Positions 20,352 to 43,513 of a DNA stretch of 64,000 bases are shown in pieces. The notes below the pieces were generated by a model, which was not told the DNA's origin, searched no databases, and saw nothing but the letters and a program-made list of their open reading frames with translations. The translations under genes and the position numbers were made by a program. This stretch comes from Trichodelitschia bisporula (lineage: Eukaryota; Ascomycota; Dothideomycetes; Phaeotrichales; Phaeotrichaceae), in contig ML996692.1 in NCBI GenBank assembly GCA_010356995.1, forward strand, positions 879,933-943,932, given 5' to 3'. Position 1 is the stretch's first letter; every line of letters begins with the position of its first letter.

Positions 20352-20445
20352 TGCGGCTTACCCGGATCGAACGGGTGACCTTCAGATGCTCTGATGACCG
20401 AAGTTCAACTTCAGTCTGACGCTCTCCCAACTGAGCTAAAGCCGC
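20352..20445 (-). tRNA. tRNA-Phe (GAA) with a 21-nt intron
   Basis: On the minus strand a full cloverleaf can be drawn. The acceptor stem is GCGGCTT/AAGCCGC with discriminator A. The D arm is GCTC/GAGC, the anticodon stem TCAGA/TCTGA with loop CTGAAGA (anticodon GAA), and the T arm ACCCG-TTCGATC-CGGGT. The mature part counts to exactly 73 nt. A 21-nt intron at 20388-20408 follows the base 3' of the anticodon (position 37/38), the usual place in eukaryotic nuclear tRNAs. It can pair with the anticodon through its TTGAACTTC stretch. Confidence 0.95.
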
Positions 20446-33377: not shown

Positions 33378-35435
33378 TTACGGGGCCGTATCCATAGCTT
33401 CCCCCTCGTCCTCCGTAGCTTTGCCTTCGTCCTCCGCAGCTTCCCCTTCGTCCTCGGCAGCTTGGACTTTGCAGACTTCCAGGAGCTGGTTGAAGATCTT
33501 GGCATCCTCAGGTTTCCAGGCCACCCGAATGCCGCGAACAACGGCGATGCCCAGAGCCTTGCAGCGGTCATCGTTGGTGATCCACTCCTTACGCCCAGTC
33601 TCTTCAATTTCCCTTTTGCAGTTGTTCAGGTAATCGATCATCGCATCCACTGATTCTTGTCTCACTTTCCGAGCCCAAGCCTTTTGGAAAGGACCCCAGC
33701 CCTTGAAAGGCCGCACACGCATAATGACACTCTCGATGTCGATGCTCACAGACTTGCCGACAGAGCGGTTCCCAATCGTAAAAGAGGTTCCAGTCAAGCG
33801 GCACTGTATCTGCCGCTTCTTGCCACCCATGCCTATGATAATCAGGATTTCCTTGACCTGAAGCTGAGAGGGCGGCCGCATAGGTTGGTCGTACAAAACC
33901 TCATCGCCGACATTAACTTTGTCCCAGCCGATGAAGGCCGACTGCAAAGAGATGAGATGAATTTTCTCGTGGCGGACGTACACAGTCTTCTCGATGGGCG
34001 AGAACGTACGCGCGAGCTTGCTACCCCACGCCACGGACGGGTGGAGGCTGTCGGTATCATCTCGAAGCACCGTCATGATGAACGGGCTCAGATTTTGATG
34101 GTGAACCAGATGGATGGGAGCTGCCGCGTTCACCGGCACAGCAGCCGGATCGACGAGCTCTTGCACATGGTACATGCCGTCATAATTTGAGTCCGAGTCG
34201 GAAACACTCAAGGGGATGATCATACCAGCAATCCATTCGACTCCCTTGATCTCATTCGGCTTCTTGGTGAAGATGACGATTTCACCCACGCGTGGAGCGA
34301 AGGGGTCGGCCTCTTGCTCGCGGACATATTCGAGGCCCTTGTGGCCGATGACGTAGTCCGGGCTGAATTTCTCCGTAATCGGTTCAGCTGTGTTGCCCTT
34401 GGCGCGCATGAGGTCCGCATACACGTCTGGGGCGCCGTGCTCATCGGTCTTCGGGCCAGCAATGGCATCGGGCTCCCAGTCACGAACGGTGTCGGTCTCC
34501 TGGTCAGCTTCGGCATCGGGCGCCTGGTCAGGAGCAGCATTTGTAGCCGGGTTAGGAACGGGAATGTTCTTCCGCTCTAATGTCAAGTCATTAGTATCAC
34601 ATTTACTTGTATAGCGAGCTGCCTTACCTTTGCGCGCTTTCTTAGGCGGTACAGCCTCCGACTCATGACTAGCTGTCCGCTTCTCCAGTGCCTTGGTGTT
34701 CACAGCCGAGGGCCTAGCAAGGATACGAGCGGAGCGGCGGCCAGCTGCCGAGATTGGGCCAACGTCGTCGGTGATCTCAACCTCAGCGTTAGAAGCCGAC
34801 ACAGCGTTGCCGACATCTGCACTAGGTTCAGGATTCGACTGAGGCTGAGGAGCCCGGGCCCGCGGAAGCGTCTTGCACAGGCGGCACCGACACGGAATTG
34901 GAGGTGAATTTCCATACTTGTCCAGGTGGACGGCATGATCGGCCATCGACGTGGCCGAGTTGAAGTATTTGCCGGACGGATGTCCCCAGGCATAGAAGTC
35001 AGTACGATCCTAGCCAATTAACAACCATCTCATCTTCAGTTGGAATATACTTACACCATTGGTATGGCTGTACATCCGATACCCGTGAGGCAACTCATTC
35101 AACACGTAGTGGCGCCCTGAAGCATGTGAGCATTTGACAGTTTCAGATGGTTGCTCCGAGCTTCGCGGAGCGATGAGATGAGGGCTTACCAGCGAGCGTT
35201 GCCGCTCTACCATTCCGGCTCTCCTGGATTCTGTCACCCATGACTTGACGCCATTTGGCCGTGCCAGACTCGCCCAGCAGGACATAAGGGGGGTTGCGAT
35301 TCGGCGCCACTTTGCTCGCGTCCCCATCTGACTTGCCGTCGTCGAACTCGATAATCACCCACTCAACCTCCTCACTGTAGCGGCGTCAGTAATAGAGCAC
35401 GAAGGGATGGAGGATATATGGACGGACCTAGCCAT
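33378..35435 (-). CDS. Clr2-type heterochromatin silencing protein
   Basis: Five exons (35435-35428, 35374-35190, 35116-35055, 35009-34628, 34576-33378) give 611 residues. Introns are 53, 73, 45 and 51 nt. The N-terminal module is restored only by splicing. It contains SEEVEWVIIEFDDGKSD, HYVLNELPHGYRMYSH, RTDFYAWGHPSGKYFNSATS, then CRCRLC, which matches the Clr2 N-terminal domain (LPxGYxLY, YxxGHPSG, CxCxxC). The C-terminal half, from VGEIVIFTKKPNEIKGVEWI to MRVRPFKGW, fits the Clr2 silencing domain. In fission yeast Clr2 is a subunit of the SHREC remodelling/deacetylase complex that silences heterochromatin. The protein ends in imperfect AEDEGE repeats. The first exon is only 8 nt and uses a weak GTCCGT donor, so the start is the least certain part. 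The fourth intron (branch TACTAATGAC) is in frame and stop-free. Confidence 0.82.
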
Positions 35436-36675: not shown

Positions 36676-38935
36676 TCACATTCCAAGCCAAACCTCACGC
36701 TCCCGGGGCTTCTCACTCAATCCCCTCAACGCGTGGGCCAACTCACTCGCGTTCTCTCCCAGCACGCCTATCTCTTCCTCATAATCAAACGGGCCACCAA
36801 GCAGCTCACACACGACGCCAGGGGGCGGCATCTCGCCTCGCTGAAAGTACGCCCGAACGGCCCGGGCCACACACCTCCCAGGCTGGGCGAGCGTGCTGTG
36901 CCCATCTGCGTCTTGGACCAGGACGCGTGAGCCAGGAAAGCGCGCGGCCATGGCATACGCATTGCGCAGCGGCGTGACGGGATCGCGCGTGCTGCTTAAC
37001 CAGAGCAGCGGGTGCGCGGTACGCGGCGCAGTTATGTTGCGCGTAAAGGGGGCGGCAGGGCGGATGGGCCATGATGCGCATGCCATGCTAATTTCGAGCC
37101 AGCGTCCGGCGAACGTGGGAGACTGGTCTTGCAGCTTGTGCCAGCGCTGGTAGAAGTCGTCACGCGTCAGATGCGTCAACGGCGCGCCATCGCTACAGAG
37201 GATCGCGCTGGTGGTCTGTCCGACGAATTGCGGAAAGGTGTTGGAATGACACCTTTCGCCCCACGGGTCCGTCTCGCACGCCTGGCTACGGCAGGGGAGC
37301 GGCACGCGCCGCGCCTTGTCGTGCGCGAGCCCTGTCCCATTTCCCTGGCTAAGATCGACGATTGCGCGCGCCAGCCGCGGGAACCCAGTGCGCGGCATGT
37401 ACAGGGCTTCGATGACGACTTCAAGCAGGTCCTGGTGGGTCACTATGTGTGGGCCGTAGACGCCGTGAGCAGGAACCGGAAGCGGGTTGTCGAGCAGGTC
37501 GGCTAGAATACGGGTGTATAGGGCACGGGATGAGGCAACTCCAGCGGGAGTGTACAGCGGGCACTTGGAGGGCCCAGCGTGCTGGCACTCCGTGAAGAAG
37601 CTCATGAGTTCGAGTTCCGTGTCTTGTAGGTTTTTGAGCCAGCCAGCTGCGGGAGGAATTAGGGGGTGCGGGTAGTGACAGGTAAAAGGGGCTCACTGGA
37701 GTAGTAGTCCTCAGAGTCGACGACACCATCGAGAACGAGTCGCCCGACTCGCTCGGGGTACATGCTCGCGAACGTCGCGCCCAGGAGCGTACCGTAGGAA
37801 AAGCCCCAGTAGAGGAGCTTCTCCTCGCCCCTCTTCCATCGGGTGCGTTCGTCGGTCTCGTCGTTCATCACGGAGCCCACGATCCTGCGCGCCTCGTCTT
37901 CGCGCCACTCGCCCAGGGCCTCGGCCATGGCAAGCATATCGCGTGCCACACTCGGAGTGCCCACGAACCGGCCGCTGTCCGCCATCCTCCACGCACAGCT
38001 GCCACCAATGCCCAAATGACGCGCCCAGGTTTTGGCGAGTGTATCGTTGCGCCCGGCAACCGGCGAGCCCTCGGCCATAGCTCGAAGTACCCAGGCTGCC
38101 TCGGTCACATCGTCGGGGAAACAGGAGGTGTACGGAGAAGAATTGTTTACGCCTCGCGGGTCGAAACCGATGATATCGAAGGACTTTCCCTCGGAGTCAC
38201 TGGCGATGATCTGCAGCATGTGTGCTCTACTATCAGCGAAAGCCACGCCCGATCCGCCTGGCCCGCCAGGGTTGATGAGGATGGAGCCGCCATAGCTTGG
38301 ATGAGTTACTGGGACGGAGGCGGGAAGGCGGGTGAGCGCAATGGTTACAGTTCGGTTAATTGTGAGAGGTGAAGTGGAGAACCAGTCGAGCGGGACGGAG
38401 AGGCGTGCGCATTGGAGAGCGGGGGAGAGGTTATCAGGACATGGCGAAAAGATGAGGGTGCTCGAGGGGTTGATCTGGTGGATTTGAGTGAACGTTTGTG
38501 GTCACGTGTGGCGGGAATACCTCAGTCCAACTCCTCGGGCGGTCGGTGCCCTGGGAGCTGGCTGTCAGGCCGGTGAGGCCCGAGGGTAGGAGCTTAAGTA
38601 GAGGAGCGAGATGGACCAAGGGGGAGAGGTTGTGGAGATCTGAGGAAGAGGTGAGGATGGTGGAGGGCTTTCTCTGATGGATTTCAGTGAACGCGCGAGA
38701 TCACGTGAGGCGCGAATACTTCGGAATAACTGCTCCGGCCTCTCGCTACCGGGCCGGTGAGGTCCAAAGGATGGAGTTTGAGCTGGTGCGGCCGGAGGTG
38801 GATGATGATGAGGGCAAGAACGGTGGCGAACAGCAGGACGAGGCGATGCTTGAAGCTGTTGGTGTTGCGGGCCGTGATGACGGCGTTATGTCGGGCCGAA
38901 GGGGAGGTACTTGGACGGAGAACTCGATCTTTCAT
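36676..38935 (-). CDS. S33 tripeptidyl aminopeptidase-like hydrolase
   Basis: Four exons (38935-38720, 38673-38521, 38474-37697, 37646-36676) give 705 residues. Introns are 46, 46 and 50 nt. Exon 1 encodes a basic stretch, then a signal-anchor helix (HRLVLLFATVLALIIIHL, about 30-47), so the enzyme is probably secreted or a type II membrane protein. The alpha/beta-hydrolase part has the oxyanion region LINPGGPGGSG, the nucleophile elbow GFSYGTLLG, the acid STRDPVTP and the histidine DADGHSTL. It also has Cys-rich lid segments (FFTECQHAGPSKCPLY) typical of TAP-like peptidases that take tripeptides or short N-terminal residues from peptides. The 5' end is unusual: exon 2 and its flanking introns come from a local tandem duplication (see findings). 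Skipping exon 2 would keep the frame. Confidence 0.85.
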
Positions 38936-39874: not shown

Positions 39875-41151
39875 ATGACCATGTCCTTCTTTACCAGCAA
39901 GACCAAAGGCACGAAGCTGCCCTCGGACGACGATGGCGCCCTCCCGCCCACCAAGCGCATCATCACGCCCGCAGGATTGCGATTGTCAGTAATCATGGAG
40001 CCACCGCAACCGCAAGGGCTGCAAGGGAGCCCCTTCCGCAACCCCAAGCGCAACAGCCGGCTCTCGGCCAAGAGCAGCACCCTGAGCAACGTGACGGAGC
40101 ATCCTCGGGAGAGCAACGAGTTCGCGGCCGGCGGCAGCGCGGGCGGGTACTCATACAGTATCTTTTCGGACCAGAGTGCCGCGCCGGTGACGGAGAAGGG
40201 GGCCGCGGAGGCGGAGAAAGAGAAGAGACCTAAGGGGTGGTGGAGAAGGATGGCACTCTTTTTTGCTCTGTTTGTTGTGGTTATTGTCGCGGTGGCCGTG
40301 GGCATGGCGCTTGGGTTGAAGAAGCATAGTACCGGGTATGTGGTTGTGTATAGCTTCCTATTTTGTCGCGACTAACGCCTTCCAGCGGCGCGACTTCTGG
40401 CTCCAACAGCTCCCACGGCTCCTCACCCTCTGGCTCGTCAGCTTCTGGTTCGTCATCCTCTGGCTCCTCCGGTTCCTCTGGATCGTCAGGCTCATCTGGC
40501 TCATCTGGCTCAAAAACTGGCTCCTCCGGCTCCTCCACCTCGTCCTCCGGCCCCGCCCTCCCCTCCAACTTCCCCCTTGGCAGCTGGAGCATGGTAACCT
40601 ACCTCGACACCGTGCAAACCGCCTGCACCTCCCTCAGCAGTACCTGGACCTGCAACCCCGGCACCATCTACAACAGCAACCACCTCGCAGCTCTCACAAC
40701 CTTCAACTGGGCCGTCACGGTCCCCTCGAAGGGCGGTTATGCCATCAGCTCCGACGGCGCAGCTGCAGGCCTCAGCTTCCGCAACGCGCCGCTCACGCTC
40801 GTGGGCGCCGGCACCAGCAGCGAGCGGTGGACGTTCCAAGCGATGATCGACAAGACGGTGGATGTGACCATCAAGGGTGTTGCGGCGACGTGCACGTACA
40901 ACGCGACAACTTTCCAGGGGTACATGTTTACGAAGCGCGCGAAGGAGTATCCTAGCCCTGATGATCCGGTGCCCAAGACGCAGAACCAGATGTGGCCGTT
41001 TGCGGTTCGCGTTGAGGAGGTTATCGGTGGTGGGCTTGCGAGCCCGACGTGCGTGAAAAAGGATGGTGGAGACCCGGTGACGGATGGGATTCAGGCGCAG
41101 GACGCGGGGAGCTTGTGTAGCTGTCTTTATCGGAATTGGTTGACCCCATAG
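39875..41151 (+). CDS. Ser/Gly-linker single-pass membrane protein
   Basis: Two exons, 39875-40335 and 40386-41151, flank a 50-nt intron (GTATGT, branch GACTAACG, CAG) and give 408 residues. The cytosolic N-terminus is basic and Ser-rich. One membrane helix lies at about 128-152 (ALFFALFVVVIVAVAVGMAL), followed by a long GSS linker including seven or so GSS units. An extracellular Cys-containing domain follows, with GSWSMVTYLDTVQTACTSLS and WPFAVRVEEVIGGG and several N-x-T/S sites. From memory, this layout matches a family of ascomycete surface proteins, often mis-annotated as Tat-signal proteins, with no known role. A second ATG six bases downstream (MSFF) is equally plausible as the start. 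Confidence 0.83.
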
Positions 41152-41943: not shown

Positions 41944-42532
41944 TCACCCTTTCCCTGCCCCCTTCCCACTCCTCCCATTAATTACAGCCAAATAAGAATT
42001 CCACCCCAACGCAACAACATTAACAACCAGGACGCGATGCGCCAGTGGTACATATGTAAAATTGACCGCTTGCACCGCCGGCCAAACCATCAAATTCCCC
42101 TTATACGCCGGCCAAAACGCCTCCGCGAGGCGCTTGCGCGGACTCGCGCCCTCGGTTGCGGCCATAAAGCTGAGGAAAGCGCATAGATTGACCGGCGTGA
42201 AGAGAAGCTGATCGGCTCCGATCCGCGCCGCCAGCCCAGTCGCCCCGGACACCGGCATCCGCGCGAGGAACTTGTACCAGGCTGTGGCGGCGGGGCCGAA
42301 GATCAGTCCGCCGTAGGTTGCCATGCGTGCTGTGCGGCTGATGTCGTGCCCCTGGGGAGAGGGCGCAAAGACGCGCTGAGCCAGGATGTCGCCGGTGCCG
42401 AAGAGGACGGCGGTAGTGGTCATTTGCGTGACGAGCGGCCGCCGCTGCAATGACGTAGTGTACCTTGGCGTGTTAATAAGATCGAAAATGTGGGGTTGAG
42501 GGGGGGTGATACCAGCGGAAGAGGCCCGCCAT
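41944..42532 (-). CDS. Mpv17/PMP22 family protein (Sym1-like)
   Basis: Exons 42532-42513 and 42463-41944 flank a 49-nt intron and give 179 residues. The first exon is only 20 nt (MAGLFR plus two bases of Trp) and splices to the sequence YTTSLQRRPLVTQMTTTAVL. This yields the classic family start W-Y-x-x-x-L-x-x-R-P-x-x-T-Q. Further signatures are FGTGDILAQ, then YGGLIFGPAATAWYKFL, and the C-terminal WPAYKGNLMVWPAVQAVNF and LGWNSYLA. Mpv17/Sym1 proteins are four-helix proteins of the inner mitochondrial membrane (or peroxisome), linked to stress tolerance and metabolite flux. The C-terminus carries a short GKGAGKG tail. Without the small first exon the frame would lack a proper start. Confidence 0.9.
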
Positions 42533-43513
42533 TGAAACTGGACGCGTGAGGGCGACGGTTTGGAAGGGTGGAAGGGTTGGGTGGAGTGTGGTGGGGATGG
42601 AATTGCAGTGTAGTAGGGAGCAGGTTTGGTGGTGATAAAGAGGTGAGGTTGGATATCGACCAGGGTGACGTTGATGGCGCAGGGGTTATTGGCCAGGTAG
42701 TGAGCTTCCATCGAGCTTTCCCAATCGGGGAGTTTGATGTGAGACAGGATGCAGCGAATAGGAGGGTCAATTGGAATAGTCGAGGCAGACGAACATGCGG
42801 CATCTCTGCACGTATACTCGAGGACAAAGCTAGCTACTCTGCATGGACGGTTTGGACTCGAACCAGGCGTTAAATAGAAATTGTATATCGAGGAGAGACA
42901 AACATCACAGGTACCCGTTTACCGAAGTCGTAACAGCTCTTTCCAGAGCAGCATACCAGTTAACATCCTGAAAGGCGTCCGGCTCCAAAGCTCCAAGTCC
43001 CAATTCTGAGGCCCAACGACGCCAAACCGCCTCAAACACCATACACCCACCTCTCCGGAAGCAATCAAGCATCACAATCGCAATAGCACAACGAACGAAC
43101 GACCGGCAGCAGATGCGACTCATTCAGCTCGCCAACGCGAGGATAGGACAGGCCATGCTCCAATCCCCAAGGGCCACCTTCCACTACCGTACACTACGAC
43201 ATCCGCTAGTCCGTACGAAAAGGCGTGTAAAGTCCCGTCCAGCCCTCTCATCCTCGATTCCCCACCGGTTCCCCAGCTGCGATCCCTGTGCAACATCATC
43301 GCCTCCCTCGCACGGTGCAGATCATGGCAAGCCAGCAAATACAGGATGCCCATACGCCCAACGCCCGCTTCCCCCGCCCGCTGAAACTACGACCAAAGGA
43401 AAAAAAGCCAACAAAGCAAGCCCCTCGCAGTGTGGTATATAAAGTGCAACAGATCTTTTAGCGACAAATGAGTGAGATCAAAAACCAGTGCGCCGCATGG
43501 AAGGAGCTTTGTA
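42533..43513. other. Intergenic, nothing recognised
   Basis: This is the upstream region of the Mpv17-like gene and the 3' flank of the UPF0658 gene. A GGTTCGAGTCC-like T-arm string on the minus strand near 42860 has no matching cloverleaf. Confidence 0.5.

Follow-up and report, generated by a model that had tools for sequence, protein, structure and literature searches.

Tandem duplication of an intron-bearing segment within a fungal S33 peptidase gene and the probable inclusion of the resulting exon

The window analysed here, a stretch of 64,000 nucleotides from the ascomycete Trichodelitschia bisporula, contains on its minus strand a gene for a TAP-like S33 serine peptidase in which, as judged from the sequence, an intron-bearing segment is duplicated in tandem. 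Duplication of this type is an already known way in which genes grow, and the peptidase gene looks like a clear example of it, one in which the wholesale copying of an exon-intron-exon unit can still be read. The duplication itself, of about 190 bp, is confirmed; on balance, we consider it probable that both 46-nt introns are removed and that the exon between them, exon 2, is normally included as an extra length of stalk, which would alter how far the catalytic domain lies from the membrane. Because the two introns are natural near-replicates, the gene would allow a clean test of what organisms with short introns do with a duplicated exon, absorb it or make it alternative.

Gene structure and identity of the peptidase

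The gene model runs on the minus strand from an ATG at position 38935 to a stop at 36676 and yields a product of 705 residues. Exon 1 (38720–38935; 216 nt, 72 codons) encodes a short basic N-terminus, a hydrophobic segment at about residues 27–50 and the start of the stalk, with a hydropathy peak of 1.99 at residues 32–50 (19-residue window). It is followed by the predicted intron 1 (38674–38719; 46 nt, GTATTC...CATCAG), the predicted exon 2 (38521–38673; 153 nt, 51 codons, phase 0), which has a coding-like codon score, and the predicted intron 2 (38475–38520; 46 nt, GTATTC...CACCAG). Exon 3 (37697–38474; 778 nt) holds the beginning of the S33/TAP-like domain, including the two family cysteines and the GFSYGT nucleophile motif, and is separated by intron 3 (37647–37696; 50 nt, GTGAGC...CTAAT...GCAG), which has ordinary signals, from exon 4 (36676–37646; 971 nt), which encodes the remaining peptidase including the PF08386 TAP-like domain and ends with the stop codon.

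The S33 peptidase identity that an earlier note had assigned to the product is borne out by profile matches to PF08386 (77.8 bits against a cut-off of 21) and Abhydrolase_1 (68.4 bits against 25.8). The gene encodes a TAP-like S33 serine peptidase, and its predicted membrane anchor, called from hydropathy only, lies ahead of exon 2, where the same note had placed it. The stretches GFSYGT, STRDPVTP and DGHST, taken to be the motifs of the catalytic Ser, Asp and His, each have a counterpart in the alignment with a PDB relative. The product resembles the TAP-like S33 serine peptidases represented by PDB chains of Hip1, carboxylesterase A, a protease, TnmK2 and a secreted hydrolase, with which it shares the Abhydrolase_1 pieces and TAP-like domain, the GFSYGT motif and a start of the form L-x-(W/F)-x-x-C and (E/Q)-C-A. 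What sets it apart is an intron-bearing gene with an additional exon of 51 codons, and a hydrophobic segment at the N-terminus. Searches of the genome for a paralogue returned none: the PF08386 profile gave one match and a protein search two, all of them in this gene, and none of the 17 matches that a PF00561 search placed outside this gene (19 in total) was reported by the protein search. A literature search for an S33 tripeptidyl aminopeptidase in basidiomycetes gave no match. A neighbour of the peptidase gene, the minus-strand ORF at 41944–42711, carries an Mpv17/PMP22 domain.

Anatomy of the duplication

The repeat consists of adjacent direct copies on the minus strand, which score 129 in a local DNA alignment, whereas 500 two-base-block shuffles average 30 and never exceed 54. 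A repeat scan gives the core of the repeat as 120 nt ungapped at 73% identity with an offset of 199. Copy 1, made up of the tail of exon 1, intron 1 and the head of exon 2, extends in the alignments over about 38599–38782 (184 nt), and copy 2, made up of the tail of exon 2, intron 2 and the head of exon 3, over about 38400–38598 (199 nt), the boundaries having been set by eye and being accurate to a few bases. To within a few bases, copy 2 adjoins copy 1 head to tail in the same orientation, and in a fuller alignment the two differ by one 15-nt in-frame indel. Since the exon 1-intron-exon 2 and exon 2-intron-exon 3 segments are adjacent copies, exon 2 is a chimera: the first 25 codons, from the downstream half of copy 1, go back to the head of the former second exon, and the last 26, from the upstream half of copy 2, to the exon 1 tail. 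Across 264 kb, comprising the 64-kb window and 20 stretches of 10 kb from the same genome, this was the only pair of copies with at least 70% identity over 110 nt at an offset of 60–400 nt.

The homology spans the intron and both coding flanks, beyond the motifs first noticed. LKLHPLDLTGP...SYSE of exon 1 is aligned with LKLLPSGLTGL...SWTE of exon 2, and RKPSTILTSSSDLHNLSPL of exon 2 with INPSSTLIFSPCPDNLSPAL of exon 3, so that the LTGP/LTGL and RKPSTIL.../INPSSTL... pairs to which the earlier note had drawn attention do face each other. Its description of the introns (each 46 nt, sharing GTATTC donors, CCA(T/C)CAG acceptors and about 37 bases) and of exon 2 (153 nt, phase 0, stop- and Met-free, with an in-frame SYSE-INPSS join when skipped) was reproduced on re-measurement, the introns being identical at 37 of 46 bases.

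The copies differ at 9 of 46 intron and 39 of 120 exon positions; the idea that the introns are the more conserved part was dropped, the difference not being significant (Fisher p = 0.13). Estimates of dN and dS between the copies are similar (0.43/0.47 in the downstream and 0.37/0.54 in the upstream part), a pattern to be expected when constraint on one of the copies is relaxed, and over the first 57 nt there are 4, 8 and 7 substitutions at codon positions 1, 2 and 3, respectively.

The two copies can be told apart by the family cysteines. In the best 80 of 227 relatives, drawn from bacterial and archaeal genomes and described here as bacterial, the position of the second cysteine of exon 3, that in LQCARL, is Cys in 80/80. 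The first, that in FSPCPD, is covered by the alignments of 43 relatives, 35 of which have Cys there, the other 37 of the 80 stopping short. Exon 3 keeps both cysteines, and exon 2 has Leu and Asp at these positions. As the copy in exon 2 lacks both, the functional start of the domain appears to lie in copy 2, and copy 1 to have drifted. Before the first cysteine the bacterial relatives, compared there in 45 of the best 80 rows, align inconsistently. Fungal family members presumably carry a W-S/T-x-I-x-P-S motif there, and RSWTE-INPS, formed when exon 2 is included, would be closer to this norm than SYSE-INPS.

Coding capacity of exon 2

The phase-0 codon score of exon 2 is 0.126 per codon, which places it at the 28th percentile of in-frame 51-codon windows (n = 436) taken from long ORFs; 0.8% of the off-frame windows of these ORFs, which also trained the score, reach it. 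Its codon use thus looks coding in phase 0, a bias that may be inherited. The exon has neither an in-frame stop nor a Met. The open frame was considered as proof of coding and set aside: 36% of shuffles and 42–81% of randomly mutated copies are also free of stops, and with such sequences this common the open frame is uninformative. An N-L-S sequon is kept in both copies, and exon 2 is without a second strong hydrophobic segment (hydropathy maximum 1.22). Skipping of exon 2 joins SYSE to INPSS in frame and leaves an intact protein of 654 residues. Retention of intron 1 leads to an internal stop, and retention of intron 2 to a frameshift into a stop; the anchor and the catalytic domain can therefore be joined only if some splicing takes place.

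Splice signals

Ranked from the weakest by composite splice signal among 79 reference introns, introns 1, 2 and 3 take places 5, 7 and 29, respectively, the weakness of the first two being exaggerated by a reference set picked partly on signal strength and strong coding flanks. Among 225 GT...AG 46-mers from the plus strand of the window, 20% score as high as intron 1 and 13% as high as intron 2. None of 150 reference introns has the donor GTATTC; in the top 80 of them, G stands at +5 in 80% and CTRAY is present in 71%. Introns 1 and 2 are absent from, and intron 3 is present in, the de novo set of 150 introns, an absence that the flank filter may explain. The donors of introns 1 and 2 are the same hexamer, and the acceptors are nearly the same.

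As regards length, strict-signal intron candidates in the 264 kb outnumber those of a swapped-dinucleotide control at 30–69 nt (32 vs 10) and show no excess over it at 70–89 nt (6 vs 8) or 90–329 nt (53 vs 96). With the excess confined to about 30–69 nt, an intron of 46 nt would be typical here and a 245-nt skip atypical. The short intron candidates in the genome carry CTRAY branch-like motifs, as fits a fungus.

Inclusion, skipping or loss of exon 2

In the reading that we consider probable, a head-to-tail duplication of about 190 bp copied the tail of exon 1, the phase-0 intron of 46 nt and the beginning of the exon that followed, with a chimeric 51-codon exon between anchor and catalytic domain as its product. 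The catalytic domain would have kept its functional start in copy 2, and the coding part of copy 1 would have drifted to stalk sequence and lost both conserved cysteines. We infer that the spliceosome pairs the sites across each 46-nt intron and removes both, so that exon 2 would normally be included and would add 51 residues and one N-glycosylation sequon to the stalk. Skipping would restore the architecture that preceded the duplication and probably occurs, if at all, at a low level or by accident. Intron definition is described in PMC2219887 as the presumed mode in fungi, with failed recognition leading to retention, and PMC6616335 argues for it in ascomycetes.

The earlier note had seen in exon 2 a cassette exon. 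Were the exon alternatively included and left out to a considerable and perhaps regulated extent, long- and short-stalk peptidases would result, which we regard as doubtful. What stood of this proposal is that skipping is frame-neutral and yields an intact protein; in addition, the identical donors and near-identical acceptors, all of them weak, make competition conceivable, weak signals leaving room for leakage. Skipping is also known in basidiomycetes, with 1,527 coding-region junction events reported for Schizophyllum commune (PMC5034255) and 12 of 193 events for Ustilago maydis (PMC2219887); the latter paper cites numerous cases in Cryptococcus neoformans, and PMC6142364 reports exon skipping in every eukaryotic lineage studied, intron retention being more frequent. 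However, the share of skipping among assembled S. commune transcripts, 1% of coding-region events (PMC5034255), and the 12 of 193 events in U. maydis both speak for inclusion, and in the peptidase gene skipping needs a 245-nt intron, outside the range of lengths found in excess. The actual use of exon 2 as a cassette stood less well for a further reason: a frame-keeping duplication over one phase-0 intron always gives a skippable exon, so that frame neutrality is automatic, gives no sign of selection and is no evidence of use. Of the two, constitutive inclusion appears the likelier default. Somewhat more doubtful still is a fuller version, in which the identical donors and weak signals would lead the spliceosome to make both the long-stalk and the ancestral short-stalk peptidase from a frame-neutral fungal cassette born by the copying of a whole minimal intron. 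If true, it would be a fungal coding cassette whose birth mechanism remains visible in the sequence.

Other ways of joining exon 1 to exon 3 come from an enumeration of in-frame joins with introns of 38–300 nt, which gave 4 one-intron and 47 two-intron solutions, the model with both 46-nt introns being ninth of the 47 (mean signal score 9.5; top 12.5). The best of the one-intron solutions, a single 245-nt intron, scores 10.0, slightly above that mean, and would fit a gene in which the acceptor of copy 1 and the donor of copy 2 are unused, exon 2 is dead weight and the ancestral protein is kept. The loss of the family cysteines from exon 2 and the closeness of dN to dS would agree with this; on the other hand, the inner donor is the same as the outer, the inner acceptor falls only a little short of the outer one (2.6 vs 3.5), the phase-0 codon use of exon 2 is still coding-like and long introns are not in excess in this genome, and we hold such an outcome to be unlikely. 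The top two-intron solution pairs the exon 1 donor with a candidate alternative acceptor within exon 2, called by signal score only (38551–38571, minus strand; a CTGAC branch-like motif followed by CTCCCAG), and leaves an in-frame exon of 30 nt (GTDRPRSWTE) before exon 3. This arrangement outscores intron 1's own acceptor, but it requires a 169-nt intron besides the 30-nt exon, and the acceptor sits in the 15-nt stretch that has no partner in copy 1 in the alignment. As 72 site pairs and their combinations were tried, a high score is expected somewhere, and a shortened exon 2 of this kind seems to us quite improbable. Two similar introns of the same length in one gene might also bring to mind an introner-like or otherwise mobile intron element inserted twice, to which we give hardly any credence. 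The similarity runs on through both coding flanks, the copies adjoin each other and an intron pattern of 34 places, allowing at most 3 mismatches, has just two matches in the 25.65-Mb genome (30 contigs), both in this gene; within the 64-kb window, the best match to intron 1 elsewhere is 27 of 46 bases. An introner-like element was rejected on these grounds.

Comparison with known systems

Intragenic tandem duplications that add an intron-exon unit are reported as a source of novel intron positions in Drosophila (PMC2891723) and in a potato RdRp gene (PMC4974935), where, as here, a short head-to-tail duplication lies within an ORF. For the Drosophila cases, duplication of a proto-splice site is the proposed origin of the intron (PMC2891723), whereas in the peptidase gene a complete existing intron was apparently copied and the sequence still shows the duplication. 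The constitutive inclusion that we favour has a likeness in the vertebrate COE genes, whose duplicated exon is reportedly always included and not alternative (PMC2394523); that exon belongs to the HLH motif in a transcription factor, whereas the peptidase exon is stalk-like and known from one genome. Exon II of rtnA shows that skipping of a coding exon can occur in a fungus; it proceeds there by way of a stwintron (twin intron; PMC6616335), an arrangement not noticed in the peptidase gene. Among the titles found by a literature search, none named a case of fungal tandem exon duplication with alternative splicing.

Other features of the window

A tRNA gene of 94 bases on the minus strand (20352–20445; Rfam RF00005) is long enough for a small intron. 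Short tandem repeats occur in long ORFs at 33396–33463, with a 21-nt unit, and at 40417–40536, with units of 9, 15, 18 and 27 nt.
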